Source: Rhodopirellula sp. (GTDB taxonomy: Bacteria; Planctomycetota; Planctomycetia; Pirellulales; Pirellulaceae). Taken from it: a stretch of DNA of 43,609 nucleotides. The notes beneath the pieces are model-generated. The model ran no database searches. It worked only from the letters and a program-made list of their open reading frames with translations, and was not told the origin of the DNA. This document shows, in pieces, positions 3,966-34,512 of the stretch. A program made the position numbers and the translations under genes. The stretch is from positions 51,713-95,321 of the forward strand of contig NZHC01000108.1 of NCBI GenBank assembly GCA_002689655.1, given 5' to 3'. The first letter of the stretch is position 1, and the number at the start of each line of letters is the position of its first letter.

Positions 3966-4183
3966 ACAAGAACCCCTCTCATCAGACAGTGTTGTTTGTG
4001 ATGGTTGGAATCAGGGACATGAAATGCCCAAACGGTGCTGCTCGTCGCATGAAGTTGCCGTCTCTCAGGTTCCAAGGAACAGGGTCTTGCAAGAGGCATG
4101 GGGGGGAAGGCGGGCAAGATTGGGAGGAATGGGCTGCGGGGGTGAGTTGAACCATCCAACCCATCTGCAAACTGTGGTTCCCA

Positions 4184-6436
4184 TTAAGGCTCGAAACGGA
4201 AAATGGTGGTCGCGAGTGGTGGCAGGTTAACCAGAATACTGTGGGGCCGCTCGTGGTGACCTCGTCCCGTCGTTTCTCGGCCAGGAAAATTTCCGATGTT
4301 GGTTCCGCCATAACTGGTGCTGTCGCTATTGAAAATTTCTTTCCAAAAGCCGCCGTGCGGTACGCCCACTTCATAGTCGTAGCGAACCACGGGGGTCATG
4401 TTGGCACAGACAAGTAGGGGCGGCGTCCCGTCAGTCCCTTTTCGGAGGTAGGCAAGGACACTATCTCGGGCATTTAGGCAGTCGACCCATTCAAAGCCAT
4501 CATCGGAGAAGTCAAGTTGGTGGAGTGCAGGATTTTCAACCACGATCCGATTGAGGTCGGCAACCATTTGCTGTACGCCCCTGTGATTTTCAAAATCGAG
4601 GAGTTCCCATTGCGGTCCCTCATCGTGGTTCCATTCATTCCACTGTCCGAATTCGCCACCCATGAACAGCAATTTTTTGCCCGGATGGGTCCACATGTAA
4701 GAATAGAGCAGACGCAGGTTGGCGAATTTTTGCCACAGGTCGCCAGGCATCTGACTTAGCATCGCGCCTTTTCCGTGGACGACTTCATCGTGCGAAAGTG
4801 GCAGCATGAAATTCTCGGTGAAAGCATAAATCAAACTGAATGTTAAATCGCTTTGATGATGACTGCGGTGGACTGGCTCCTTATGAAAATAATCCAAGGT
4901 GTCGTTCATCCAGCCCATGTTCCATTTGCAGGTGAATCCGAGCCCGCCATCTTCCGTGGGACGCGATACGCCGGGCCATGCGGTTGATTCTTCGGCTGCT
5001 GTCACCACCCCCGGATACTTGTCGTGGACCGCTTCATTGAATTCTCGCAAAAACTCAATTGCTTCAAGATTCTCTCGTCCGCCGTTTCGGTTGGGAATCC
5101 ATTGATCGTGTTCGCGACTGTAGTCGAGGTACAACATCGATGCCACGGCATCAACACGCAGCCCATCGACGTGATACTTATCTAACCAGAACAGGGCGTT
5201 TGCGATCAGGAAGTTACGGACTTCGTTGCGTCCATAATTGAAGATGAGTGTGCCCCAGTCAGGATGTTCGCCCTGGCGCACATCGGCATGCTCGTAAAGG
5301 GCAGAACCATCAAATTTCGCAAGTCCATGGGTGTCTTTGGGGAAGTGGGCCGGTACCCAATCGACAATCACACCGATTCCATGCTGGTGCAGATAGTCTA
5401 CAAAGAACATGAAGTCTTCCGGACTTCCATGGCGAGATGTGGGGGCAAAGTAGCCGACAGTCTGATAACCCCAGGAGCCAGTGAATGGATGCTCCGTAAT
5501 TGGCATCAGTTCCACATGTGTGAAATGCATGCGGTGACAGTAATCGACCAGCCTTTTTGCAAGATCCCGATAGTCCAGCCATCCGTGGGTGCGACCGGGG
5601 CCTTTCTGCCAACTGCCCAGGTGAACTTCATAAATATTCATGGGAGCATGCCGCGGATCGCCGTCACGTCGCTTGGACATCCAGACGCTATCGTCCCATT
5701 GATAGGTGTGGAGATCAGACACGATTGAGGCCGTCAGCGGCGGTAATTCGGCAGCAAATCCGAGCGGATCACTTTTGTCTAGCCATTCGTCGTTCAGATT
5801 CAGAATACGGTATTTGTACTTGTCGCCCACCTTCGCGTCAGGGATGTACAGTTCCCATATTCCCAAATGGTCAAGTGATTTTGCAGTATGTTCACGGCCG
5901 TCCCAATTGTTGAAATCGCCGACTACTTGAACGCATTTTGCATTGGGAGCCCAAACAGAAAAATTGACTCCAGTTGAATCGTCGATGGTGCGAGGCTGGG
6001 CACCCAAGCGTTCATAAAGTCGGTGATGGCGCCCTTCGCCGATCAGGTGCCGGTCGAGGTCACTGAAGATGGACGGTGCGGCATACGGATCTTGCATGTC
6101 GATAATCTCGCCAGTCTTGTCTGTCATCTGGATGCGGTATCGGGATGTGCTTGTTTTCCCATGCGCGACATCTTGATCTGCCTGAGGCTTCTCGTCGACC
6201 TCCCCGTGGCAGATCGCTTCAAAAAAACCTGCCGGATGGAGTTTTCGCATGGGACGCCGTAGGCCGTTTTGGCGATCAATGATCCAAGCAGCTTTCGCCT
6301 GAGGCAGGTAAGTTCGCACTGCAATCGCAGACTCCCCAAGATAGTCCACTGGGTGCGGACCTAGCACACTCGAGGGGTTTTCGTGGGTACCGTCAATCAG
6401 CTGGCCGATGCTGTTCAGGGAGACTTGAGTGTGCAT
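4184..6436 (-). CDS. glgB: 1,4-alpha-glucan (glycogen) branching enzyme
   Basis: Cytoplasmic GH13 enzyme that forms alpha-1,6 branches in glycogen. The 750-residue length is typical of long bacterial GlgB with an N-terminal N1 domain. A CBM48 domain (GVNFSVWAPNAKCVQVVGDFN) occupies roughly residues 150-250 and the TIM barrel about 270-640. Catalytic signatures are present: DGLRVDAVASM with the nucleophile Asp near 429, TAAEESTAWP with the acid/base Glu near 482, and LPLSHDEVVHGKG. A C-terminal beta domain follows. The ATG start gives MHTQVSLNSIGQLIDGTHEN, consistent with the family. No other glg gene is in the window. The upstream RNase H-like gene is 82 bp away on the same strand. Confidence 0.97.
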   Translation of the reverse strand: MHTQVSLNSIGQLIDGTHENPSSVLGPHPVDYLGESAIAVRTYLPQAKAAWIIDRQNGLRRPMRKLHPAGFFEAICHGEVDEKPQADQDVAHGKTSTSRYRIQMTDKTGEIIDMQDPYAAPSIFSDLDRHLIGEGRHHRLYERLGAQPRTIDDSTGVNFSVWAPNAKCVQVVGDFNNWDGREHTAKSLDHLGIWELYIPDAKVGDKYKYRILNLNDEWLDKSDPLGFAAELPPLTASIVSDLHTYQWDDSVWMSKRRDGDPRHAPMNIYEVHLGSWQKGPGRTHGWLDYRDLAKRLVDYCHRMHFTHVELMPITEHPFTGSWGYQTVGYFAPTSRHGSPEDFMFFVDYLHQHGIGVIVDWVPAHFPKDTHGLAKFDGSALYEHADVRQGEHPDWGTLIFNYGRNEVRNFLIANALFWLDKYHVDGLRVDAVASMLYLDYSREHDQWIPNRNGGRENLEAIEFLREFNEAVHDKYPGVVTAAEESTAWPGVSRPTEDGGLGFTCKWNMGWMNDTLDYFHKEPVHRSHHQSDLTFSLIYAFTENFMLPLSHDEVVHGKGAMLSQMPGDLWQKFANLRLLYSYMWTHPGKKLLFMGGEFGQWNEWNHDEGPQWELLDFENHRGVQQMVADLNRIVVENPALHQLDFSDDGFEWVDCLNARDSVLAYLRKGTDGTPPLLVCANMTPVVRYDYEVGVPHGGFWKEIFNSDSTSYGGTNIGNFPGRETTGRGHHERPHSILVNLPPLATTIFRFEP

Positions 6437-6518
6437 TTGTGATCCGCTAAGGCGGCGTCAGGGAAAATGAAACGGGTTAGCGAATGGGCTGGTCGAGGAT
6501 CAGTAGTATTGCGTTGAC

Positions 6519-7181
6519 TCAGCTCGACTCGATCAAATCCTTTGCGGTGAAGCGTCGCCGCGATTCCTGAACGCCATCGGTTGCATTGCCACGAAGCAGC
6601 CAACGACGCAACTGATCGGTGGGACCATTGCCCCCTTGGGGACTACCCGGGCCGCGGTGCGGCGAATGGACACGGATATTTGCAATGTTCTGTTTTTGTT
6701 CAGCCGTTGGTGTCATAGGTGAGGTCCCGACGCTGACCAGCCGAGATGAAACCAAGCATGCTTCAACTCGATGGATGAATAACGCACGATCAACCCGTCG
6801 CCACAAATCAGCATGCTGCACATCAATCCGACGCCCAAAATGCTCCCAAACAAAATTATTCTCTCGCCAGCGGGGTAACGAATCAGAAAGGGAACGCACC
6901 AAGTAACGGTTATGGCTGAGCAGCGTTACCGAGGACGGGCCATCGATCGATTCAAGTCCACGCACTGCTGCCAGCAAAGTCAGGCGGTTCAAGTCACCCA
7001 GATCGGAATCGCCTGCATCAAAGACCGGTTGGCCATCGGATGATTCCAGTGAGAAACGCCACGTCCCTTCACTTAAGGATGAAGCGGTAGCCTCACAGAC
7101 CAGTAGATAGTCAGAGCAGTTTTCGGCGTCATGGACGGTGCTAATGCGTCCATTCGCCACCGCGGATGGTGTATTCAACAT
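6519..7181 (-). CDS. RNase HI-like protein, probably catalytically dead
   Basis: About 220 residues resembling the RNase HI fold. Recognisable segments are a beta-hairpin WRFSLESSDG, NRLTLLAAVRGLE (compare NNRMELMAAIVALE in E. coli), LLSHNRYLVRSL (compare STDSQYVRQGI), a Trp-rich helix and ADLWRRVDRAL (compare VDLWQRLDAAL). The acids that bind magnesium in true RNase HI are replaced: the first strand lacks the DGS motif, the helix Glu is Thr, the second Asp is His, and the final H/D pair is not seen. A GTG directly precedes the chosen ATG, so the start is uncertain by one codon. The last 60 residues look disordered. Function is unknown; a nucleic-acid-binding or protein-interaction role is inference. 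Confidence 0.7.
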   Translation of the reverse strand: MLNTPSAVANGRISTVHDAENCSDYLLVCEATASSLSEGTWRFSLESSDGQPVFDAGDSDLGDLNRLTLLAAVRGLESIDGPSSVTLLSHNRYLVRSLSDSLPRWRENNFVWEHFGRRIDVQHADLWRRVDRALFIHRVEACLVSSRLVSVGTSPMTPTAEQKQNIANIRVHSPHRGPGSPQGGNGPTDQLRRWLLRGNATDGVQESRRRFTAKDLIESS

Positions 7182-7184
7182 CAC

Positions 7185-7724
7185 AGGAAAGGTTTTCCAA
7201 CAGGATGGGGCAAGGTGTCGTCAAGTAAAGCCGTTTCTCGACTGACACGCGGCAGGGAGGTGCGATCCATCAGGGGGCAGCGGCGACCATCGCTATAACG
7301 CAGGTGTAGTCTCCGCCTGATGGGGATATCGGTAAATGCTATGTGTTCCCCACACTGTTGCTAATCAAAAAGGTCGACCAATTCTCACAGAAGACCTTAG
7401 GAAACGCAGATTCCGTATGATCGGAAAAGCCAAGCAGATCAGGCCTCGCTGGTGAACCGCATTGTGTTGCTATCCAGAGAGCCAGCGAACCATCAGTACA
7501 GTTACACAACCAAAGTCACGCTCAGCAGGGTGTGACTCACCATCTGACGACTCAAAGATTCGAAGTGAGGTGCTGCGGATGGGTTGCAGCTGTCGTAGCG
7601 ATTTTGACAAGCGGGTGACTGCGTAGGGGCCTGTTATCAAAGGTAGAGTGATCCGAATAAGCTCGCGCCGAAGGGGGCACGTAACGCCGCACGCATCGCA
7701 CAGCTTGGGAAGACATCGTTAACG
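7185..7724. other. 540-bp intergenic region with inverted repeats
   Basis: No convincing gene. The strongest structure is CCATCAGG (7267-7274) pairing with CCTGATGG (7316-7323); inside the 41-nt loop, read on the minus strand, GCGG and CCGC can extend the stem. A second inverted repeat is TCGCTGG (7446-7452) with CCAGCGA (7482-7488). Both would lie in the 5' leader of the RNase H-like gene or the 3' trailer of the LarA-like gene, which share a strand. I could not match it to a known riboswitch, tmRNA, SRP RNA or RNase P RNA. Confidence 0.4.
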
Positions 7725-8909
7725 CTACACGGGTGTGTCCAGCCAGTCGTAGGTTGCTCCGCAGAGGCTTGCCGCTCGGATGATGCTGCATTTGGCGAAG
7801 GAGCGTGTCAGGTTGCTGAGTTCCTCGCCTGATTGAATTTTGCCAATGCCAAGGGCTTCCGTTTCTTCTGCTGGTAGGTCACTGTGCAATAGAATCCGAT
7901 ACTCTTGAACCAGGTTTCGCAGCGTGCACGCAGGGGGGAGCGTTGGGTCCCAGGCTGGAAGCTCGTCTGTACCCAGTGTATCGGAATGCCCGCCGATCTC
8001 AGTTGTGTTTTCATAGATGCTCAGGAGACAGCCGGTAGGAGCATCCGAAAGCTTCGTCCACAACACGATGGTGCCCCCCAGATCAGTACGCCGGGAGGCT
8101 GCTGCGGCTGCCCGTGCTACGTTCTGCCAAGTTTGTTGCTGTTGGTCGCCGTCCAGCGAGGCAACGACCAGCGATGTCGGTGAATTGCTCGCCGGAACGT
8201 GACGGGCTTCTTGGAGGCTTTTGCGAATCCCGATAGCTGTTCCGGCGTTGATATCGGCCGCTTCTCCCGAATTGCTTGAGGTCACGCTCAGTATCAACTG
8301 AGCACCTAGTAGCATGGCCGGCTCGTTCGGGTCAGAGGAATCTGCACTTGCTTGTGACGGGGGACCCAAGCATCGAAGGCGAGATGCAGAATCTGAGAAC
8401 GTTGGGAAAAATCCATGCAAATCACTTCGGCAGTCCAAGTCACCACAACGCCCGGATGTGATTGGTAAAACAAAGTCTGCATCGACCAGTAACCGGTTCA
8501 GGTAGATAGGATGCGCCGCAACATCTGGGCCGAGGAATCTTAGTGCCTCACGATTCGAGGGCTGGTGGATTTCTACTGCACCAGCTTCGCCGACGACTTC
8601 TGTAATCGCTTGCATCGTCGAAGGAACCGCCTCATCGCTGACCACGACGCTGATACTGTCCGCGTCGCTTTGCTGAAGTAGTTGAATGACCGCTGAAAGA
8701 ATCCGTAGCACTTGGGGCGTATTTGGATCGACTGCTACGGCAACGGTGTCACCTGGCACGATCGCCGCGGTCATTGCTGGATAATCGACAGGGGCACGCA
8801 GCGCCGAGAGAGTTGCTTCAAACGGATCCGCGCAGGGGCCTGACTTAACAGGACTATGCGATGAGCTGTCTGCGGAGGCGATTTCAGATAGGTGCGACTC
8901 AAAATTCAT
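7725..8909 (-). CDS. LarA-like (DUF2088) protein, divergent
   Basis: The 394-residue protein resembles the lactate racemase LarA family. Its order of elements fits: PGDTVAVAVDPNTPQVLRIL, then SISVVVSDEA, then PIYLNRLLVDADFVLPIT, then a LHGFFPTFSD segment where LarA has the HYFAGFSGGRK-type motif. The Lys that covalently holds the nickel-pincer cofactor in LarA is absent (the GGRK becomes SDSAS), as are the THRP and RPTP motifs. It may therefore be a non-nickel relative or act on another substrate. No larB, larC or larE is nearby. The ATG start at 8909 has an unconserved Ser-rich leader of about 25 residues. Family placement is moderate; function unknown. Confidence 0.65.
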   Translation of the reverse strand: MNFESHLSEIASADSSSHSPVKSGPCADPFEATLSALRAPVDYPAMTAAIVPGDTVAVAVDPNTPQVLRILSAVIQLLQQSDADSISVVVSDEAVPSTMQAITEVVGEAGAVEIHQPSNREALRFLGPDVAAHPIYLNRLLVDADFVLPITSGRCGDLDCRSDLHGFFPTFSDSASRLRCLGPPSQASADSSDPNEPAMLLGAQLILSVTSSNSGEAADINAGTAIGIRKSLQEARHVPASNSPTSLVVASLDGDQQQQTWQNVARAAAAASRRTDLGGTIVLWTKLSDAPTGCLLSIYENTTEIGGHSDTLGTDELPAWDPTLPPACTLRNLVQEYRILLHSDLPAEETEALGIGKIQSGEELSNLTRSFAKCSIIRAASLCGATYDWLDTPV

Positions 8910-9287
8910 ATTAGGGGATCCGGCTAACTCAGGCGACTCTTAACTTCAAAGCTTTTGCCACTGTTGTAATCTCAGTCGCTCACGAACAGAAGGTAGGTTG
9001 GGCCGGAAGCGTGTCCCAAATCAAAAATGCGAATTAAACGGTGATCAGTAAAATGCCCGCGAGATCCTACTCGTCGGCCTCGTTACTAGTGGCTGGGCAG
9101 GACGCATGCCTTGCATGGGCTTCACGATGGGACCCGCGTTGCAGGCTTTGTCAGCTGCAGTGATCGAAGTGGGGCGGAAATGCTTGCTTTTCGCGGAAAT
9201 GATCTTGCGACGTGAGCGACTTGCCCGCGACAATGCGCATTCGCCCGGTGACGCATTTTTTCGTGACTCTTACGTGACTGACCCAAA
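8910..9287. other. Divergent intergenic region, 378 bp
   Basis: This gap separates the minus-strand LarA-like gene from the plus-strand HEAT gene and must hold both promoters. A direct repeat CGTGACT occurs at 9262-9268 and 9273-9279, 11 bp apart, just upstream of the HEAT gene start. I see no convincing gene or RNA. Confidence 0.4.
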
Positions 9288-10694
9288 ATGGAATTTGGTG
9301 ATCTGTCGGAAAATCCCTTTTCGCGCGTAGCACGCAAGCAAAAAAACACGCGACGCCGTTCCTTGGTTCGAGCGTTTCAGGTATTCGTTTTAGTAACCAT
9401 CGCAACTGGTGGAATCCTTGTTCTGGCAAATCAGAGCAAGCGTTGGCTAGCTGAGCGTTTATTGGTTGACTTTGATGGTCTTGCGGCTGGTCAAAAGATT
9501 GACCGCTTGGGGCAGCTCGCCGACTTAGGAGCTTTTAGTGTCGAACCGCTCGCCAATAGTATGGCTGACGAAGATCCTGGAGTAGCCAGGGCTGGTTATG
9601 AGTTGTTACGAGCCGCTCAAAATAATTGGACGGTATTACCACTTGCCGATGAGTTGTCCCGCCACGAATTGTTGATCGAAGCAGTGAAGGGTATCGCCAT
9701 AGATCTGCCAGACCATCGTACCGGTTGGGGCACGAGCTTGATGCAACAAACCTTGCTGTTTGCTTCAGAGCACCCGGGTAGCTCGGGGGATCTTCCTGAG
9801 CGTGCATCCAAGGCCATTAACCTGTTAACGCTTTCGGGGCGTCCCACGCATACCAATGACTTGGGTGAGAGAGACGCATTTGGACGACTGGATGTGCAGG
9901 CCGGACCATTGCCAGTCGACGGGATCCAATCCGTTGACGAGTGGACGACTTGGCCCCCAAGCCACGCCGTTACCCGAAATGTCAGCGGGGGGATCGCGGG
10001 GGATGCGCCAGACATGATCGCGGGGGCAATTTCGGGTGGCTCTTTCGGGCACGCTGAATCAACACTCTCAATCGATAATCGTTCAACCGCTGGCAGGTCC
10101 GCGAGCGTGCCAACAGTCTATAAGTCTGGCGCAAGCAGATTGCAGTTGGTTGGCAGTGATGAAGTAGTGCAACTTGCAGATATTGCTGATAGCACCATGG
10201 TTGATTCTGTGGACCGCGGAGATGCTCTTGAGGTTGGAAGGAATGTTGGTTGGGTCGATGGAAGCAATTCCCCGGTGATCAATGCAAATGCACAGGTCGG
10301 CTTACTTGATTCTCCCGTGGGCACGTTTGATGATGCGTCCGTGATGTGTTGGCTAGGGAGTCCGCATGCAGCACTTCGAGAGAAGGCAAAGTTGGAGCTT
10401 GTTTCCAGAGGTTTTGATGGCACCGCGATCGCAATCGCAACGCGTATTTTCACCGGTAACGTCAACCAGAGACTCGAGTTGGTGGAAGCTTTAACAGGTA
10501 CGAGTGTGCTCGATCCGCGTCCGTGGCTGTTGTTGTTGCTGCAAGACTCGGATCGTGATGTGAGATTGCGAGCGGTCTCCATTTTGGGGAGCATGGACGA
10601 TCCCGCGATCGCTGGACGTCTGCAGACGCAACTAGGTGACGAGCGTGACCCAGCAGTCGCGTCCCGAATTCGCCGTGTGTTGAATCTCCGGTAA
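9288..10694 (+). CDS. Membrane-anchored HEAT-repeat protein, function unknown
   Basis: The 468-residue protein has a basic N-terminus (RKQKNTRRR) followed by one hydrophobic helix at about residues 26-46, so it is probably anchored in the inner membrane with the rest outside. After the anchor come helical HEAT-like units, roughly residues 55-180. A long Ser/Asp/Gly-rich low-complexity linker (about 200-345) follows, then two or three clearer HEAT units at the C-terminus (WLLLLLQDSDRDVRLRAVSIL is typical). The ATG at 9288 is the first sensible start. The gene is convergent with a moxR gene. No enzymatic motif is visible; a scaffold role is inference. Confidence 0.75.
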   Translation: MEFGDLSENPFSRVARKQKNTRRRSLVRAFQVFVLVTIATGGILVLANQSKRWLAERLLVDFDGLAAGQKIDRLGQLADLGAFSVEPLANSMADEDPGVARAGYELLRAAQNNWTVLPLADELSRHELLIEAVKGIAIDLPDHRTGWGTSLMQQTLLFASEHPGSSGDLPERASKAINLLTLSGRPTHTNDLGERDAFGRLDVQAGPLPVDGIQSVDEWTTWPPSHAVTRNVSGGIAGDAPDMIAGAISGGSFGHAESTLSIDNRSTAGRSASVPTVYKSGASRLQLVGSDEVVQLADIADSTMVDSVDRGDALEVGRNVGWVDGSNSPVINANAQVGLLDSPVGTFDDASVMCWLGSPHAALREKAKLELVSRGFDGTAIAIATRIFTGNVNQRLELVEALTGTSVLDPRPWLLLLLQDSDRDVRLRAVSILGSMDDPAIAGRLQTQLGDERDPAVASRIRRVLNLR

Positions 10695-26098: not shown

Positions 26099-27184
26099 TT
26101 GTCCGGTCAAAAAAGACAACATCAACGCGTTTCGACGGTCAGCGTGTCCGCCCCCAGCAGCATGTTGGAGCGTTTGCGGTTATTACGATCGAACGTCAGC
26201 ACTGAAGGGCACGCGATCTTGGCGGCAGCTTCTTGTTTGGGTCCCGAGGCGGTGACGGCTGCGGAGTTGACTGCAGAGTGTGACGGTTGCGTCGTTGTGA
26301 CCGGTGTTGGAAAAGCTGGTCTGGTAGGTCAAAAGTTGGTGGCCACGCTTGCAAGTACTGGCTCACCTGCGCACTTCTTGCATCCCTCGGAAGCGGTTCA
26401 CGGTGATTTGGGACGCGTGCGAAAATGTGATTTGGTTTGGGCGATCAGTAATTCCGGTCGCAGTGAAGAGGTGGTGCGGATTGCGCCCCATCTGCGAGCA
26501 AATTCATGCGGGTTGATTTCCATTACTTGTGACCACGACAATCCACTTGCGGTGACGGCGGATTGCTCCGTTGCGATTGGCAAGCACAATGAGGCATGTC
26601 CCAATGGCTTGGCACCCACGGCGAGCACTGCTGTGATGATGGCAGTGGGCGATGGAATCGCGATGCTTGCGAGCCAGATGCGTTCGTTCACGGCACAAGA
26701 TTTTGCCCGGTATCACCCTGGTGGTTCGCTGGGCCGGAAACTGATTGACGTTGATCAAGTCATGCGTCCGCTTGCGGTTTGTCGTGTTGCCTCGACCGCG
26801 GTTTCGATTCGTTCAGCGATGGTAGCACCGTCTCAGTCTGGGCGGCGGACTGGTGCTGTGATGCTGGTGGATCAGCAGGGCAAGCTCGCGGGGGTATTTA
26901 CGGATAGTGATCTGGCGCGATTATTGGAGGCTCGTGAGGAGGCTGTTCTGGATGCGTCAATCGCGTCTCGGATGAGCCAGGAGCCAGCCACGGTTGTCAG
27001 TGGGACGCTGTTGCAGGACGCGATGGCTCTGATGTCGCAACGCCGCATCAGTGAATTGCCAGTGGTCAACGCTGAATTCCAGCCTGTGGGGATCCTTGAT
27101 ATTACCGACGTCGTTTCGTTGACCGAATCAAGCCAGGGGCAGCCCACCGTCCCTTTTGGACCCACTGATGAGTGTTCCCACTAG
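26099..27184 (+). CDS. kdsD: Arabinose-5-phosphate isomerase (KpsF/GutQ family)
   Basis: Interconverts ribulose-5-phosphate and arabinose-5-phosphate, the first committed step toward Kdo for LPS. The 361-residue protein has a SIS domain (about 55-190) with VVTGVGKAGLVGQKLVATL, HPSEAVHGDLGRV and AISNSGRSEEVV. Two CBS domains follow (about 220-345), with GVFTDSDLARLLE and the closing RISELPVVNAEFQPVGILDITD. TTG is the preferred start because of a good ribosome site, but the ATG at 26162 is possible and removes 21 poorly conserved residues. kdsC follows after 90 bp, the same order as in E. coli. Confidence 0.93.
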   Translation: MSGQKRQHQRVSTVSVSAPSSMLERLRLLRSNVSTEGHAILAAASCLGPEAVTAAELTAECDGCVVVTGVGKAGLVGQKLVATLASTGSPAHFLHPSEAVHGDLGRVRKCDLVWAISNSGRSEEVVRIAPHLRANSCGLISITCDHDNPLAVTADCSVAIGKHNEACPNGLAPTASTAVMMAVGDGIAMLASQMRSFTAQDFARYHPGGSLGRKLIDVDQVMRPLAVCRVASTAVSIRSAMVAPSQSGRRTGAVMLVDQQGKLAGVFTDSDLARLLEAREEAVLDASIASRMSQEPATVVSGTLLQDAMALMSQRRISELPVVNAEFQPVGILDITDVVSLTESSQGQPTVPFGPTDECSH

Positions 27185-27202: not shown

Positions 27203-27244
27203 CTGTTTTATTGTTCCTGTTTTATTGTTCCTGTTTTATTGTTC
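27203..27244. repeat. 14-bp tandem repeat, three perfect copies
   Basis: CTGTTTTATTGTTC occurs at 27203-27216, 27217-27230 and 27231-27244 with no mismatch, followed by CTGCAC. The array lies between kdsD and kdsC and ends 30 bp before the kdsC ATG. Confidence 0.95.
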
Positions 27245-27274
27245 CTGCACCTCGACACCCCGTCCTGATATTTC

Positions 27275-27799
27275 ATGCCAGCTCTGTTGAAGCCTGATTC
27301 CGAAATCGCTGAATCGATCACCTGCATTCTGTCCGATGTTGACGGGGTGATGACAGATGGGCGGATCGTTTATGACAACCAAGGTGTCGAGACCAAGAGT
27401 TTTCATGTTCGTGATGGCTTAGGAATCAAAGCTTGGATGAACAGCGGTTTTGGCTTTGGCATTCTGACGGCGCGGACAAGCAAAATCGTCAGTCAGCGGG
27501 CTGGCGAGTTGGGGATCGAACACGTTCAACAAGGCTATGAGGACAAGTGGCCCGCTGCGTTGTCGATGTTGTCCGTGATGGGCTATCAACCCGGACAGGT
27601 TTGTTACATCGGTGACGATTTACCTGACATTGCTGTCATGCGTCGTGTTGCGTTAGCAGTGGCGCCGGCGGATGCTGCTTTTGACGCGCAGGAGGCTGCG
27701 GGTTGGATTTTGCGTTCAAAGGGTGGCCAAGGCGCGTTACGCGAATTGGTTGAACGCCTATTGCGATCGAAACATCGCTGGGAGGAACATTTGGGGTAG
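27275..27799 (+). CDS. kdsC: 3-deoxy-D-manno-octulosonate 8-phosphate phosphatase
   Basis: HAD-superfamily phosphatase of 174 residues that releases Kdo from Kdo-8-phosphate before its activation to CMP-Kdo. The HAD nucleophile motif is DVDGVMTDGR starting at Asp21, with FHVRDGLGIKAW next, ILTARTSKIV as motif II, and GDDLPDIAVM as the metal-binding motif near residue 111. Its length matches cap-less tetrameric KdsC. The ATG start at 27275 is clear. It lies in an operon-like order with kdsD upstream and a large LPS-transport candidate downstream (90-bp gap). Confidence 0.94.
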   Translation: MPALLKPDSEIAESITCILSDVDGVMTDGRIVYDNQGVETKSFHVRDGLGIKAWMNSGFGFGILTARTSKIVSQRAGELGIEHVQQGYEDKWPAALSMLSVMGYQPGQVCYIGDDLPDIAVMRRVALAVAPADAAFDAQEAAGWILRSKGGQGALRELVERLLRSKHRWEEHLG

Positions 27800-27889
27800 T
27801 GAAGTTCATTGCGGCTGCCAGTGCTTTTGAGCTGATTTTCAGCGTTGCTGGTATCTGATCTTGGACGGTTCGGCGCCCTCAAACACACC

Positions 27890-30800
27890 ATGTTAAACAA
27901 GATTCGACAGTATCTCATTGCCCTCACCGTAGTCCTTGCAATGGCTGTGGCATATCAGACGTTGGTGACGCCTCAGTTGCATCCACCAAAGGTCAAGTGG
28001 ATGCATGCCGCGACCATGCCGCCGTTGACACGCTTTAATGACAGCATCAAGGGCTTGTTTCCTGATGAGGACTGTTGGCAACGCAGTGGGTGTACCATTC
28101 TGAAAACCGTTGACGGGATGCTGTTGTTTCGGGATTGGGTTGATTTAGATAATAACAAGTTTCGGTTATCGCCACTTTCGATTGTGGTTGGAGGTGGGTT
28201 GAAATCGGGTCAGTCAAGTGCGCCCATTATGATCGACGCGCCACAGGGAGCTGAAATTCAATTCAATCGCTCACTTGAGATGGGCCGCGGGCCAACGCCT
28301 GCCATCGAACGGGGGAGGGTGATTGGTCCCGTCGTAGTGAAGGCAATGGGCGATGAAAATGAACATGGCGGGTTGCTCGTTCATACGTCGAATATTGGTC
28401 TTGATAGTCAGAAAATATGGACCACTGATGAGTTCGATCTGAGCTCGGAGGGGCTATCCATGCGAGGACGCGATTTAACGCTCCACCTGACGAAGACGGG
28501 CAAGGGTATTCCGGAGCTTGAACGCGTTGAACTCATTTATCTGTATGGCCTGAAGTATTCGGTGGATGAGACAAAATCGATGGATTTTGCTTGTGATGGC
28601 AGGGTTGAGTACCAGTTCACTCAGAGAACGCTTGAAATGCGAGAGGCGGTTTCACTGGCTTACCGTGACGGGGATCAACTCAGCACGTTTAACTGCGACT
28701 CACTCGAGTGTGTGCTCGCTGATCCAGAGCTAGAGTCTGGCTCAGGTAAAGCAAGTTCTTCAGTCACAGACCAATTTGAGAAGATTACCGCGGTTGGACA
28801 GCCGGTGGTTTTGAAGTCGGGGACGATGCGAGCAGACTTCTCTGCAAATAGGATCGAAGTGACTTCGGGCAGCGGTGGACGCCTGGGGATTTTGGCAACT
28901 GGGGCCAGTGGTGTGAAAGTCAACTCCGCAGGCTGGGGTGGGACGTTTGAAGAGTTGAAATGCAACCTGCAGATGGGTGATGAACCAAGATTGCTGCAAT
29001 TGTTGGTTGATGGGTTTGGGCGAGCATTCTTTCGGGATGATTCTGGCACGGTCGGAGACATCAGTTGGGCAACGTCATTCAAGCTTGGTGAGGCGGCTGC
29101 GGTGGGGAAGGGAGGTTTAGCTTCGAGTGTAGGAGCGAACTCTGGGCTGACGCAAAAGCAACCAGATGCCGTGAACAATGGGGTACGCAGGAAGTTTGAC
29201 TTCGTTATTGGCGGAGACGTCAAAGGGCGATTTGGTCTTAGTAGTGCGTCGACGGCGGATCGGAAAACATCCGGTCAGTTTGGGGCACGTACTCTCGCTG
29301 GGGCGGTGAAGGTGTTAACAAGCCGACCCACGGGAGGTCCGTTAGCAGGTCGAGCCACACCACAAAAAAACACCTGCCTGCCAGACTGGATTAGTTTGCA
29401 GGATGACGTCCGTATTTCGACCGACAGTGTTGATGCTGAAACCGATGAGCTGCTTCTTTTCTTCGATCAAGCACAGTTCCTGACGAACGCGAAGCAGGCT
29501 CGGCCTGAGGCTTCAGTGCCTGTTGCGGCGGTTGTCGCACCTTCATCAGTTGAGCCGGTGATTCGAAAAGCTCACGAGCGGCAGACGATCAAAGGACAAC
29601 GGATCAGTGCAAAGTTTGCCGTTGCCAATGATGATCGCTGGACGCCGCAAAAGGTGAATGTCGAAGGAGACGTTTCGATTCAATACATGCACCAGCATGA
29701 AGGAGTGTCGCTGCCTGCAAAACTTACGGGTGACGCTTTGCAATATGAGGGGCAGCTTGGCAGTGATGTGGTGCAGTTGAAGGGAAAAGCTCAGGAACCA
29801 GCGAGACTTGATGTCGGGGACGGCTTTTTTGTCGGGCCGATGATTCAGTTGAGGCCCAGTCAGAATATTCTCTGGATGAATTCTGCGGGGGAGTTTCAGC
29901 TACCTTCCGCGTTGATGCAGGGTGCAGCCGAGTCCGCGGACCCGACCGCTGTGCAATGGGTCCATGCACCTCATTGCCGTTGGCGGGGTGAATTGTTGTT
30001 TGATGGGAATACCGTTGTGCTTTCGGAAGGAATCGACATCACCGCGTCGGTCTTGTCCGGTGGTGATGCGATGGATCTTCATTTGACTGGAGACCGTTTG
30101 CAGGTGGATTTGGCGGGTAAGGTCGAGATGATGAAGCCAAGCCAAGTGCAAGAAATCGAAATCCAGCGTGTGACGATTACAGAAACAAAAGAGAGACCCG
30201 TTGAAATTCAGCTGGTAAGGCTTGCTGCGGGTGAGGATGCGCAGTCCAAGCATCTTCTGTACACCAGAAAGCTCGAGTTTACGCCTACGGAGCTCGGTGG
30301 TGTGATCAAAGGGTTTGGGCCCGGTTGGTACCGCGGTTGGCTACCCTCGAAAGAGGGCCCGGTACCTTACACTGGCGTGCACCTGACATTTAAAGACTCC
30401 ATGCAAGCCCGTGTGGAAACCAAAACGCTGGATTTCCTGGGGGGCGTCCGAATCGGAAAGCGAGGCGTGGCAGGTTTTGATGCACCTTTCTTTGATGCGT
30501 CAACCATGGATTCAATTTCCGTGGGTGACTCTACGCTCGATTGTGATCGTATCCGCGTCAATGCCGATCCTGCCGGGGCTCTCGCTGGTGCTTATGGTCG
30601 TAATGCGAGCCCGTGGGAATTGGAGGCGGTTGATGGCGTGGTGTTCAGAGATATGGGCGCCAAGAATGGGCTGTTGGTTGGCACAGCTAGTCGTGTGACG
30701 TATTCGAATTCCAAAGACCTTTTCAAAATTGATGGCTCTCCCAATCGGCCGGCCTTTTTTGAACTCACGAATTCAGATGGAACGCCTCGGGCCAAGGGCA

Positions 30801-30901
30801 CGGTTCGCACGATGACTGTGCGGGTGTCGACCAAGGAGGTGGAGAATATGATTCTGGAAAGTCTCGATATTGCGGCTCCGCAAAACAGGGACATTCGGTG
30901 A
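27890..30901 (+). CDS. Very large LptC/OstA-like envelope protein
   Basis: A 1,003-residue protein with one N-terminal hydrophobic anchor (about residues 7-27); the rest should be periplasmic. The sequence after the anchor is beta-rich, with recurring OstA-like strands such as VVKAMGDENEHGG, FDLSSEGLSMRGRDLTLHL, KVNVEGDVSIQYMH and LTGDALQYEGQLGSDVVQLKGKA. LptC, LptA and LptD share such beta-jellyroll repeats. It occupies the position of lptC directly after kdsD-kdsC, but is about five times the length of LptC (about 190 aa). I chose the ATG at 27890; a TTG at 27845 is also in frame. Role in LPS transport is inferred from position and fold-like repeats; no lptB is in the window. Confidence 0.7.
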   Translation: MLNKIRQYLIALTVVLAMAVAYQTLVTPQLHPPKVKWMHAATMPPLTRFNDSIKGLFPDEDCWQRSGCTILKTVDGMLLFRDWVDLDNNKFRLSPLSIVVGGGLKSGQSSAPIMIDAPQGAEIQFNRSLEMGRGPTPAIERGRVIGPVVVKAMGDENEHGGLLVHTSNIGLDSQKIWTTDEFDLSSEGLSMRGRDLTLHLTKTGKGIPELERVELIYLYGLKYSVDETKSMDFACDGRVEYQFTQRTLEMREAVSLAYRDGDQLSTFNCDSLECVLADPELESGSGKASSSVTDQFEKITAVGQPVVLKSGTMRADFSANRIEVTSGSGGRLGILATGASGVKVNSAGWGGTFEELKCNLQMGDEPRLLQLLVDGFGRAFFRDDSGTVGDISWATSFKLGEAAAVGKGGLASSVGANSGLTQKQPDAVNNGVRRKFDFVIGGDVKGRFGLSSASTADRKTSGQFGARTLAGAVKVLTSRPTGGPLAGRATPQKNTCLPDWISLQDDVRISTDSVDAETDELLLFFDQAQFLTNAKQARPEASVPVAAVVAPSSVEPVIRKAHERQTIKGQRISAKFAVANDDRWTPQKVNVEGDVSIQYMHQHEGVSLPAKLTGDALQYEGQLGSDVVQLKGKAQEPARLDVGDGFFVGPMIQLRPSQNILWMNSAGEFQLPSALMQGAAESADPTAVQWVHAPHCRWRGELLFDGNTVVLSEGIDITASVLSGGDAMDLHLTGDRLQVDLAGKVEMMKPSQVQEIEIQRVTITETKERPVEIQLVRLAAGEDAQSKHLLYTRKLEFTPTELGGVIKGFGPGWYRGWLPSKEGPVPYTGVHLTFKDSMQARVETKTLDFLGGVRIGKRGVAGFDAPFFDASTMDSISVGDSTLDCDRIRVNADPAGALAGAYGRNASPWELEAVDGVVFRDMGAKNGLLVGTASRVTYSNSKDLFKIDGSPNRPAFFELTNSDGTPRAKGTVRTMTVRVSTKEVENMILESLDIAAPQNRDIR

Positions 30902-30939: not shown

Positions 30940-32013
30940 TCAATCTTGCTGCGGTTCTTCGTTATCGAGCATGTAGTCTTTTATTTTCTTGTGGAGCGTG
31001 TTCCGGTTGATCCCCAGTTTAGATGCTGCTTTGGTTTGGATTCCACCGCAGGAGGCGAGAACCTGAGCGATGAGTTCTTTTTCGATGCGTTCGACGATCA
31101 CTGAATGAATTTCTCCCGTGATGGCACCGGCGTCACTCAAGCCGCGCATTACAACTTCGCGCGTTAATGAATCGAAGTCGCCGGTAGGAAGGCGGGTACC
31201 CGTTGGTAGCTCGCGCGACGTCACGCACTTGGGTAAGAGGTCAAGAGTGAGTTCATCGGTTTCCGCCATCACAACAGCGCGTTCAACGTAGTTTTGCAGT
31301 TCACGGACGTTACCCGGCCAATGGTAGTCTTGCATGGCCTCCATTGTGCCAGGCCCGATGTGGACCACATAACGATCGTTCACCTCATTGTAGTGTTCAA
31401 GAAAAAACGAGATCAGACTTGGGATATCTTCTCGGCGACGGCGTAACGGTGGTATTTCAATGGGGACCACATTGAGACGCCAATAAAGGTCTTCCCGAAA
31501 CCTGCCCTCCTTGGATTCCTGCATCAGGTCCCGGTTGCTGGCAGCTACGATTCTTGCATCGGTGCTTAGAGTACTGGTATCACCGACACGCTCAAATTCG
31601 CGTTCCTGCAACACACGCAATAGCTTCACTTGTAGCGTCAGTGTGGTGCTGTTGATCTCATCGAGAAAGACCGTACCGCCATCCGCAGCCTCGAAGCGGC
31701 CGGTACGATTGGCAACTGCACCGGTAAAGGCTCCCCGTACATGCCCAAACAATTCACTCTCCAGCAGGCTTTCACTCAAGGCACCACAGTTGACGCGAAC
31801 AAAAGGTCCTTGGCTGCGATGGCTGAGTTGGTGGATCGCGTTGGCAATCAGTTCCTTGCCAACGCCTGTTTCACCGAGGATCAGCACCGAAGCGTTGCTG
31901 CCTGCAACGCGGCGGGTTACTCGATAGACCTCTTGCATCGCTGGCGAGTTGCCAATGATTCCGGGGATGGGGGGCGCGCCAGAGCCCGATGGTGAGGTTC
32001 CGAGGATCGACAT
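30940..32013 (-). CDS. Sigma-54-dependent transcriptional activator without a receiver domain
   Basis: Enhancer-binding protein of 357 residues that remodels RNA polymerase-sigma-54. The AAA+ domain starts at about residue 18, with Walker A GETGVGKE (47-54), the sigma-54-contacting GAFTGA loop at 94-99, Walker B TVFLDEI and the arginine-finger region [12 protein letters not shown]. The C-terminus is a Fis-type helix-turn-helix ([18 protein letters not shown]). There is no N-terminal receiver, GAF or PAS domain, only a short Gly/Pro/Ser leader, so it must be controlled otherwise. The gene is convergent with the LptC-like gene, 38 bp away, and follows the exported receiver-like gene on its strand. 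Confidence 0.94.
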
Positions 32014-32239
32014 AGGGTGATTGTGGGCCGGGTTGTGGTCCGAGACCGCGATCTGTGTTGCGTAGGGCTAATCGTTTGGGCGCAGGGGACGCGCCGTTGC
32101 TTAGGAGTGAAAATACCTATATTTCAACCGCTCGGATACCAGACCGCCTCTGTCTCAGCCGCGTTTGGGGGTTTGGGTCGCTTTGATCGCCCAGAACATC
32201 GACGTTGGGGCTGGATTTTACGCTACTGCACCGGCGAGA

Positions 32240-34105
32240 TTATCCGCGTTCTGCGAGTGCCTGTGCCGCTTTGGTCTGGTAGGTTTGCCGATCCAGGAAG
32301 GTCATTTGTGGAATACGGCGGCTCTGCTTCACTTGTCGTCGCAGGTTCTCCAATTCGGCCATGGAGGTGGGTTGGTCGACCCACAGGGTGGGGGCGGGCC
32401 AGCGTCGACTGCTCAGGTCCGGTCCGGTTGGCCCGTAAAAAACAATTGGAATCTGTTTGCCACGGTCCAGCCTACGTACACTGTCGACCATCTCAACGGG
32501 TGGCAGGTCAGCTAATTGGGTTTTGGCCATGATGAGCCGTAAATCACCACCACGGCGAATCGCGTGTTGCAACGCTGCCACGCTTCCCACAACTTCAACC
32601 TCAAAGCCAATGTTGCTCAGGAGCGTCTCGGCTTGCAAGGTCGTGTCTGCTCTGGTCTCGACAAGAATTGCGTTGGGTTTGTTGGTCAGCGAGTTCATCT
32701 CGCTCAAGGTGCGTAAGACAAAGCTGCTACCGGGGAAGGGCCTGCCCTTCGCAAGCGCGGCAATCTTTAAAGCAGCCTCGAAGCGAATCCGTGGTTCAGG
32801 CGATGAAGCCGCACGCACAAGTGCGGTCCGACTGATTCCTGTGCCACGTAGGTAGGTTTGACGATCGGCATCTGTCGCTGCTGGAGGGTCAATGATTCGG
32901 AGCAGACCAACGGCGGCGGGTAGGTCATTGGTGTTCATTGCGTGCTCGAGCGCGTGCAGCAGAGCAGCCGCGTCGGTCAAAATCGGATATTGAGATTTTG
33001 CAGCCTCGATTTGTACATCATCGCCCCAATCGGGGTCGAGCATCAGGCGATAGCCTATCTCAGCAGCCAAAATATCACTGGCGTCATTCAGGCTTAGGCC
33101 ACCGAGTCTTCGAAGGCGTGATGCGGCATCCGCAACATCACGATAGACACCAAAAATCCGCTGTGTTGGTTGATGTGTCACGCCCGTGCGCGCTTCGTCC
33201 ACACTCCAAAGTATCATCTGTTCGTCATCATTCTTCGTTAGTTCTGCTGCCCTTTCACGTTGCGTGAAATTAATCAGCAGTAGTTCACGCCCTGAGGCTT
33301 CTGAAGGTACTGACCCTTCCAGTTTGATCAAGTTTTGTTTGCCAACAGCTCGCTCCTCAACGCTGGAATCCTGCGCCAGAGCCGCTGTGAGGAAATCGAT
33401 GGTGTAGCCAGAGCGATTGATCCTCGCGAGACACTCCAACGCAGCGGTTCTTATCTCGCTTGTCCCGTACAACGCCAACTGCTCAAGTGCGTTCTCGCCT
33501 CCTGTACCTAGTTCCAGCATCGTTCTTAATATCTGATCACGATTCTCAGGCTTGGGTGTCTGGACCGCCGCGGAGACCAGTTCAACGATCGATGCTTTCC
33601 CACCGGCTAACAGGACACGCGTTGCGGCAAGTGACTTGTCGGTTGTTTTTGCGCTGAGATCAGCGATTGCGGCTTTCAAACGTCCAGGCTCTTCCGTCGT
33701 CGTTTGCGAAGCCTTCGTCAGAATCGCTAACCCGGATTTTGCCGCTTCACTCAGGGTCGGGTCGGCCCCGATGGCGATGAAATTACGTGAACCGATCTTT
33801 TCTGCCATTTTCGTGAGTTCTGAATCTGAGGCACCGATACCGGCGACACGCGTCAGTAACGTGTTGACCTCGGGCCACTGCTTCAGGCGAGCAAGTGCCG
33901 CAATGGATTCCGCAAGTTCCAGATTCCCCTGCGACGAGTACCCCATCCACAAATCTGTCAAAGGGGACTTGGCGACAGGTCGCGCATTGCCTTGGCCAGT
34001 GCCAGTCGGGCCATTGATCTGTGCTTGTGCGAAGGCAGGAACCAAGCAGACCATCGAAAGAATGCAGGCAAAGAGACGTTTGGGATAATGGTTGCAGGTC
34101 GACAT
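32240..34105 (-). CDS. Exported helical-repeat protein with a degenerate receiver-like C-terminus
   Basis: About 621 residues. The chosen ATG at 34103-34105 gives a Sec signal peptide, with a basic start (YPKR), a hydrophobic core LFACILSMVCLVPAFA and a likely cut after AQA. An upstream ATG (34156) would add 17 residues. Alpha-helical HEAT-like repeats fill about residues 45-470. From about residue 478 the sequence resembles a response-regulator receiver fold: AILVETRAD, then AETLLSNIGFEVEVVGSV, then LRLIMAKTQL, then IPIVFYGPTG. The Asp that is phosphorylated in receivers aligns with Lys near 528 and the acidic pair is also lost. Function is unknown; the receiver resemblance is a pattern match, not proven. 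Confidence 0.65.
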   Translation of the reverse strand: MSTCNHYPKRLFACILSMVCLVPAFAQAQINGPTGTGQGNARPVAKSPLTDLWMGYSSQGNLELAESIAALARLKQWPEVNTLLTRVAGIGASDSELTKMAEKIGSRNFIAIGADPTLSEAAKSGLAILTKASQTTTEEPGRLKAAIADLSAKTTDKSLAATRVLLAGGKASIVELVSAAVQTPKPENRDQILRTMLELGTGGENALEQLALYGTSEIRTAALECLARINRSGYTIDFLTAALAQDSSVEERAVGKQNLIKLEGSVPSEASGRELLLINFTQRERAAELTKNDDEQMILWSVDEARTGVTHQPTQRIFGVYRDVADAASRLRRLGGLSLNDASDILAAEIGYRLMLDPDWGDDVQIEAAKSQYPILTDAAALLHALEHAMNTNDLPAAVGLLRIIDPPAATDADRQTYLRGTGISRTALVRAASSPEPRIRFEAALKIAALAKGRPFPGSSFVLRTLSEMNSLTNKPNAILVETRADTTLQAETLLSNIGFEVEVVGSVAALQHAIRRGGDLRLIMAKTQLADLPPVEMVDSVRRLDRGKQIPIVFYGPTGPDLSSRRWPAPTLWVDQPTSMAELENLRRQVKQSRRIPQMTFLDRQTYQTKAAQALAERG

Positions 34106-34512
34106 GCTTAGGTCGCGTTGTTGTAGTAATGGGTAGCAGGAGCTGTGTCTGTTCATTCATCATACTCCCCGACTGTCGCCCAGTCAGGGTTGGACGGGCT
34201 ATCCAGACAGGTTGTTTTACGCCGGTTGCCGGGGTTTTAAGGCCGGCCGTTCCAGTTCAGCCACGCATTTCAGTTAGTCGTCAGCCCGGGCGACGCTCAC
34301 GATATCGGCTGGGAAGGGGCCTCGCCTCCAGAATGCGGGCTGTAAGTACCGGTCATGAGTGTCAGTACCTTTGGTGCTACCGTTTGGCAGGTGCTTTACA
34401 TTTTTCGTTTTGACTAAATTTTTATGCTTGAACAGCATTTCAGACGACCTACGGCAATCTGCAGCGGCAGTGAAACGCTTGAGTAACCGCAAAAACCATT
34501 CGGGGCAATGAG
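34106..34512. other. Intergenic region, about 400 bp
   Basis: Between the SDR gene and the exported helical protein, both minus strand, so it holds the latter's promoter. A short hairpin ATGCT-TGAAC-AGCAT lies near 34422-34436 next to AT-rich sequence. No convincing gene. Confidence 0.3.

Follow-up and report, generated by a model that had tools for sequence, protein, structure and literature searches.

The gene and its predicted modules

We analysed a window of 43,609 nucleotides from Rhodopirellula sp. (contig NZHC01000108.1, positions 51,713 to 95,321), in which a gene for a long, beta-rich protein lies directly behind genes of the kdsD and kdsC type. This gene very probably encodes a single-chain lipopolysaccharide (LPS) bridge, with one LptC and a head-to-tail row of LptA covalently joined. 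The features of the locus, with lengths in amino acids (aa), are as follows.

27890..30901, plus strand: putative fused LptC-(LptA)n gene, ATG at 27890, 1003 aa
27893..27979, plus strand: predicted N-terminal membrane helix (anchor), residues 2-30, from the AlphaFold2 (AF2) helix and hydropathy
28094..28585, plus strand: predicted LptC-like module, residues 69-232
28571..29092, plus strand: predicted first LptA-like module, residues 228-401
29189..29707, plus strand: predicted long-stranded beta stretch between modules, residues 434-606, the weakest assignment
29708..30409, plus strand: predicted module(s) like the LptD N-domain, LptC and LptA, residues 607-840
30353..30877, plus strand: predicted C-terminal LptA-like module, residues 822-996
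26099..27184, plus strand: KdsD/KpsF-like arabinose-5-phosphate isomerase (TIGR00393, 248.6 bits, cut-off 203.7)
27275..27799, plus strand: KdsC-like phosphatase, directly upstream of the fused gene (TIGR01670, 139 bits, cut-off 106.95)

The longest open reading frame (ORF) spans 27845-30901 (plus strand, TTG start, 1018 aa). Because the alignment of close relatives begins at its residue 16, which is the ATG at 27890, the likely gene is 27890-30901. Each of the 40 loci fetched from the host's family (Pirellulaceae) contains one ORF matching the protein and the ORF is therefore a real gene, confirming a preliminary description of this DNA that had placed a gene of about 1,000 residues here. The 41 family sequences, window included, measure 956-1198 aa (median 1044).

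In the AF2 model the helix at residues 2-30 is followed almost only by beta structure. The top 19-residue hydropathy of the protein is 2.04, at residue 9, and 34 of the 41 family sequences have a 19-residue window above 1.6 within about their first 100 residues; the part after the helix would lie in the periplasm. The predicted fold includes beta-jellyrolls of both the LptC and the LptA type, and entries for LptC, LptA and LptD head the fold-comparison lists by Z. Since the LptA-type modules sit in a 1003-aa chain that starts with a predicted membrane helix, we read the protein as an LptC-LptA fusion and not as LptA.

The family is homologous to LptC and LptA. At E-values (E) up to 0.1, the Pfam hidden Markov model (HMM) LptD_N, which describes the LptA domain, matched 16 of the 41 family sequences (best 7.8e-9) and Pfam LptC (PF06835) four (best 1.5e-6), while the NCBIfam models matched 14 for LptC (TIGR04409; best 6.7e-8) and 13 for LptA (best 4.9e-7). 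Besides LptD_N and LptC, the only Pfam match at this threshold was one stray TubC_N. When nine family members were scanned singly, LptC matches fell at 153-215 (two proteins), 261-308 and 672-710, and LptA matches at 324-424 and 835-1067; that the LptC model also matches beyond the N-terminal module is understandable, because the modules share one fold. Four of the nine (L050, L051, L057, L067) passed the LptD_N cut-off, as did, near their C-termini, two proteins from elsewhere in the class (L196, L198). Helix, beta modules, fold matches and family HMM matches together support the earlier proposal of an LptC-like anchor followed by OstA-like beta segments.

Position behind kdsD and kdsC

The gene had been assigned to the lptC position of the order kdsD-kdsC-lptC-lptA-lptB. 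This held for the upstream side, where the kdsD-like and kdsC-like genes both exceed NCBIfam cut-offs, but not for the downstream side: no lptA or lptB lies behind the gene, and a sigma-54 activator encoded on the minus strand comes next. The upstream order, for which a search in other planctomycetes had been suggested, does recur there. A tblastn recount placed kdsC directly upstream of the fused gene in 38 of the 40 fetched family loci (exceptions L055 and L066) and kdsD upstream in 31; among 37 named loci the figures were 34 for kdsC and 32 for kdsD, and the three loci lacking kdsC have at most 299 bases upstream. The recount replaces an earlier neighbour count, which had put the kdsC cluster at -1 for 34 of the 41 sequences and was too low because antisense ORFs interfered.

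Six loci from the class outside the host's family (L194-L199) each have the long ORF adjoining a KdsC or KdsD match. Among 23 stretches taken from genomes beyond the class (L183-L193, L220-L231), 15 contain a KdsC match, which is next to the gene in 14 and separated from it by one ORF in L187; within the sequence examined, L184, L185, L189, L190, L193, L223, L225 and L226 gave none. L188 carries, in succession, kdsC (4110-4637), the fused gene (4651-7803) and LptD (7862-10465; Pfam LptD 9.5e-8).

Some further features of these neighbourhoods were observed. A 14-base unit, TGTTTTATTGTTCC, stands in three tandem copies (27204-27245) where the window's kdsD-like gene is separated from its kdsC-like gene. 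Directly downstream of the fused gene, 30940-34156 on the minus strand encodes the sigma-54 activator and a HEAT-repeat protein, both of which lie behind the fused gene in five of the 41 family sequences (window included). A class II fructose-bisphosphate aldolase (L053:4265-5275; Pfam 8e-94) lies upstream of kdsD in one family locus, and its ORF cluster also occurs near the fused gene in a few others.

Distribution in the class and the phylum

Used as a single query, the window protein matched in 128 of 149 genomes of the host's family. With a limit of E 1e-4, profile A1, built from the 41 family sequences, matched in 190 of the 198 class genomes. This counts matches that were not checked one by one, and LptD frames may be among the weakest of them (down to 5.6e-5); the eight misses all belong to one family (f12). 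The misses in the host's family partly reflect insensitivity of the single-protein search, since profile A1 recovered three of the genomes concerned (G031, G114, G124). Judged by these matches, a long protein of this kind is the usual state over the class.

The NCBIfam LptA model matched 38 of 98 class genomes at E up to 0.1 and the LptC model 13, none over cut-off; this is weak evidence, because well-known control genomes rarely pass these cut-offs either (1 of 14 for LptA, 3 of 14 for LptC). Open frames of at least about 1000 aa hold most of the LptA matches, some coinciding with the giant protein and others with LptD-like frames. Of five loci inspected, two are false matches, the one on contig C154 of the window's own genome being a kinase/FGE-like protein and the frame in G179 HlyD-like; L203 and L204 read as LptD-like, and L202 looks like a genuine additional OstA-like protein.

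In a sample of the phylum (Planctomycetota), profile A1 matched 28 of 199 genomes; 16 of these lie outside the class, with matches that are mostly weak. Over 294 phylum genomes the LptC model matched 72 at E up to 0.01, 60 of them with a match over the cut-off. The lack of a match in the other 222 says little, because they include the window's own genome and all class genomes listed. The best LptC match lies in an open frame of at least 500 aa in 64 of the 72. Frame length alone is no proof of fusion, and we therefore scanned 19 proteins from 19 of the 23 stretches fetched outside the class. In seven, both LptC and LptA exceeded their Pfam cut-offs, in that order along the chain:

L192, 793 aa: LptC 7.4e-11, three LptA stretches 6.5e-24
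L220, 664 aa: LptC 5.7e-19, LptA 4.9e-20
L221, 834 aa: LptC 3.4e-16, LptA 2.8e-14
L223, 1115 aa: LptC 1.1e-16, LptA 2.4e-6
L227, 658 aa: LptC 6.4e-17, LptA 1.4e-20
L228, 848 aa: LptC 3.1e-10, LptA 5e-15
L229, 656 aa: LptC 7.5e-15, LptA 7.2e-17

All but L223 follow immediately on a kdsC gene, and six of the seven are shorter than the window protein, which, unlike them, stays below the HMM cut-offs. Four further proteins matched both kinds with at least one below cut-off (L186, L191 with 343 aa, L193, L225 with 330 aa), four matched LptC only (L188, L230, L231 and the 174-aa L222, which consists of LptC alone, at 3.7e-22), and two LptA only (L184, L187). Profile-profile comparison (hhalign) aligned A1 with A5, a profile of seven outside-class proteins (L192 first, then L188, L186, L193, L184, L185, L183), with a probability of 99.9 and E 5.2e-32 over 825 columns at 9% identity, spanning 84-1013 against 92-1071. 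From their domain matches, several lineages elsewhere in the phylum have LptC-(LptA)n fusions of other lengths, for the most part at the kdsC position.

Lpt partner genes in the same genome

The partner genes lptB, lptF and lptG, whose location had been left as a question, were found in the genome that the window comes from: LptB exceeds its cut-off at C108:61846-62547, adjoining what by inspection is a signal-peptidase-like ORF, and LptF/LptG does so twice (C16:9949-11121, C82:83821-84927). An LptD-like protein at C93:33481-36444 (L182:4332-7445) shares 57% identity with a relative's LptD, itself just over the Pfam LptD cut-off, and its family was found in 59 of 60 family genomes. The genome thus holds LptB, LptF/G and LptD, the partners expected of a trans-envelope Lpt bridge. 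Stand-alone LptC or LptA gave no match in this genome to PF06835 or PF03968 at E up to 1, a weak negative because the giant itself went unlisted there although hmmscan sees it.

Two observations concern the outer-membrane side. Pfam gave no match at E up to 0.01 for the LptD-like protein of this genome, and Pfam LptD matched here only elsewhere, at E 0.65; planctomycete LptD, too, is easily missed by HMM. About 2 kb from the LptF/G gene on C82 lies a lipoprotein-like ORF of 385 aa (L170:11833-12987; no Pfam match at E up to 0.01), which, as a guess, could be LptE-like.

Discussion

In Escherichia coli, LPS follows the path LptC - LptA - LptD, and in other bacteria the bridge is known to be built from separate LptC and LptA pieces. 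Known LptC has just one domain, some 190 aa long; known LptA is secreted as a soluble monomer, and its copies line up through mutual contacts. The window protein shares with LptC (YrbK; PF06835, TIGR04409) the N-terminal membrane helix, the LptC-type jellyroll (here residues 75-232) and the place of its gene behind kdsD-kdsC, but carries several further jellyrolls in the same chain; compared with LptA/LptH (YhbN; PF03968, TIGR03002), its modules are covalently joined and would be tethered to the inner membrane. We propose that the helix anchors the protein in the inner membrane and that the first jellyroll, as the LptC part, would take LPS from the LptB2FG transporter. The LptA-type jellyrolls behind it would join into one unbroken greasy groove, with the C-terminal jellyroll docking on the N-terminal jellyroll of outer-membrane LptD. 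The preliminary suggestion that the roles of LptC and LptA are fused in one periplasmic bridge, a function that we infer, appears right in substance and applies more widely than stated.

A true LptC-LptA fusion by descent might instead export a different surface glycolipid, in a host making little or unusual LPS. The evidence on cargo all comes from the kdsD/kdsC neighbourhood and from homology, but genes for the synthesis of Kdo (3-deoxy-D-manno-octulosonic acid) lie directly upstream in most family loci, with kdsC also in 15 of the 23 outside-class stretches, and the LptD-like protein is nearly universal in the family, so that we regard this as unlikely. Still less probable is a bridge of the AsmA/TamB/YhdP type that moves phospholipids and lies beside kdsC by chance: such proteins share the long, inner-membrane-anchored beta groove, the bridge-like protein LPD-3 ranked 6 in Foldseek for the full model and 2 for the middle, and TamAB matched the middle at E 0.035 and 0.063 with low probability, but LptC, LptA and LptD lead by Z, the 41 family sequences contain no AsmA/TamB-type Pfam match at E up to 0.1, and the gene keeps its place behind the Kdo genes and, in L188, next to LptD.

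Several results weigh against an LptC-LptA bridge. The window protein reaches no curated cut-off: its LptD_N match (E 0.011, 16.4 of 20.4 bits) is below threshold, and NCBIfam gave no match at E up to 1. LptC and LptA matches were absent in L046 (Pfam and NCBIfam), in the class protein L195 (scanned with Pfam only) and in L183 and L185, which profile A1 had brought in. Against PDB sequences, profile A1 gave no match even with E allowed up to 10, which is why the fold comparison was needed. There, whole-chain Foldseek matches to LptD superpose poorly (template modelling score 0.09-0.16 on the query, root-mean-square deviation 41-47), how the modules are arranged is uncertain at an AF2 predicted template modelling score of 0.59, nothing matches residues 434-606 well when they are taken separately, and the middle alone gave a single match under E 0.001, to an OmpC model with a probability of 0.23. 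L055 shows no KdsC match despite 6.6 kb of upstream sequence. Finally, G208, a class genome that also has the giant, encodes a separate 240-aa OstA-like protein (L202:3757-4476) with an apparent signal peptide and a below-cut-off LptD_N match (E 0.0029).

Planctomycete cells have an unusually wide, folded periplasm, and ORF lengths in the phylum are graded (174, 330-343, 656-664, 793-1115 and up to about 1300 aa). It is possible, though we put it forward only tentatively, that the LptC of Planctomycetota took up LptA in a gene fusion and was then lengthened by repetition of modules, the ORF series acting as molecular rulers that match the distance between inner and outer membrane at LPS export sites.

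Among the literature matches listed, from a collection largely without subscription papers, we found no report of an LptC-LptA fusion, nor any publication on the seven fusions from outside the class. Verrucomicrobia belong to the same superphylum and have the same pathway, but a Methylacidiphilum paper gives separate proteins, Mfum_1152 as LptA and Mfum_1153 as LptC, with consecutive locus tags (PMC10542722). For diderm Firmicutes, another paper describes two OstA proteins of about 200 aa (PMC5007114). A 2012 study found LptD in all planctomycete genomes searched, its main text not mentioning LptA or LptC (PMC3422733), and a 2022 survey of outer-membrane genes calls the Lpt system of Planctomycetes "largely reduced" (PMC8871954). 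HMM-based annotation would miss this probably important fused protein, as the window protein stays under every curated Pfam and NCBIfam cut-off.

These results suggest that the planctomycete Lpt system is rebuilt and not reduced, with one divergent fused protein as its periplasmic part. Such a protein would be a naturally occurring, covalent form of the bridge model. As the gene would determine how many modules there are, bridge length, module count and periplasm width could be tested against each other.
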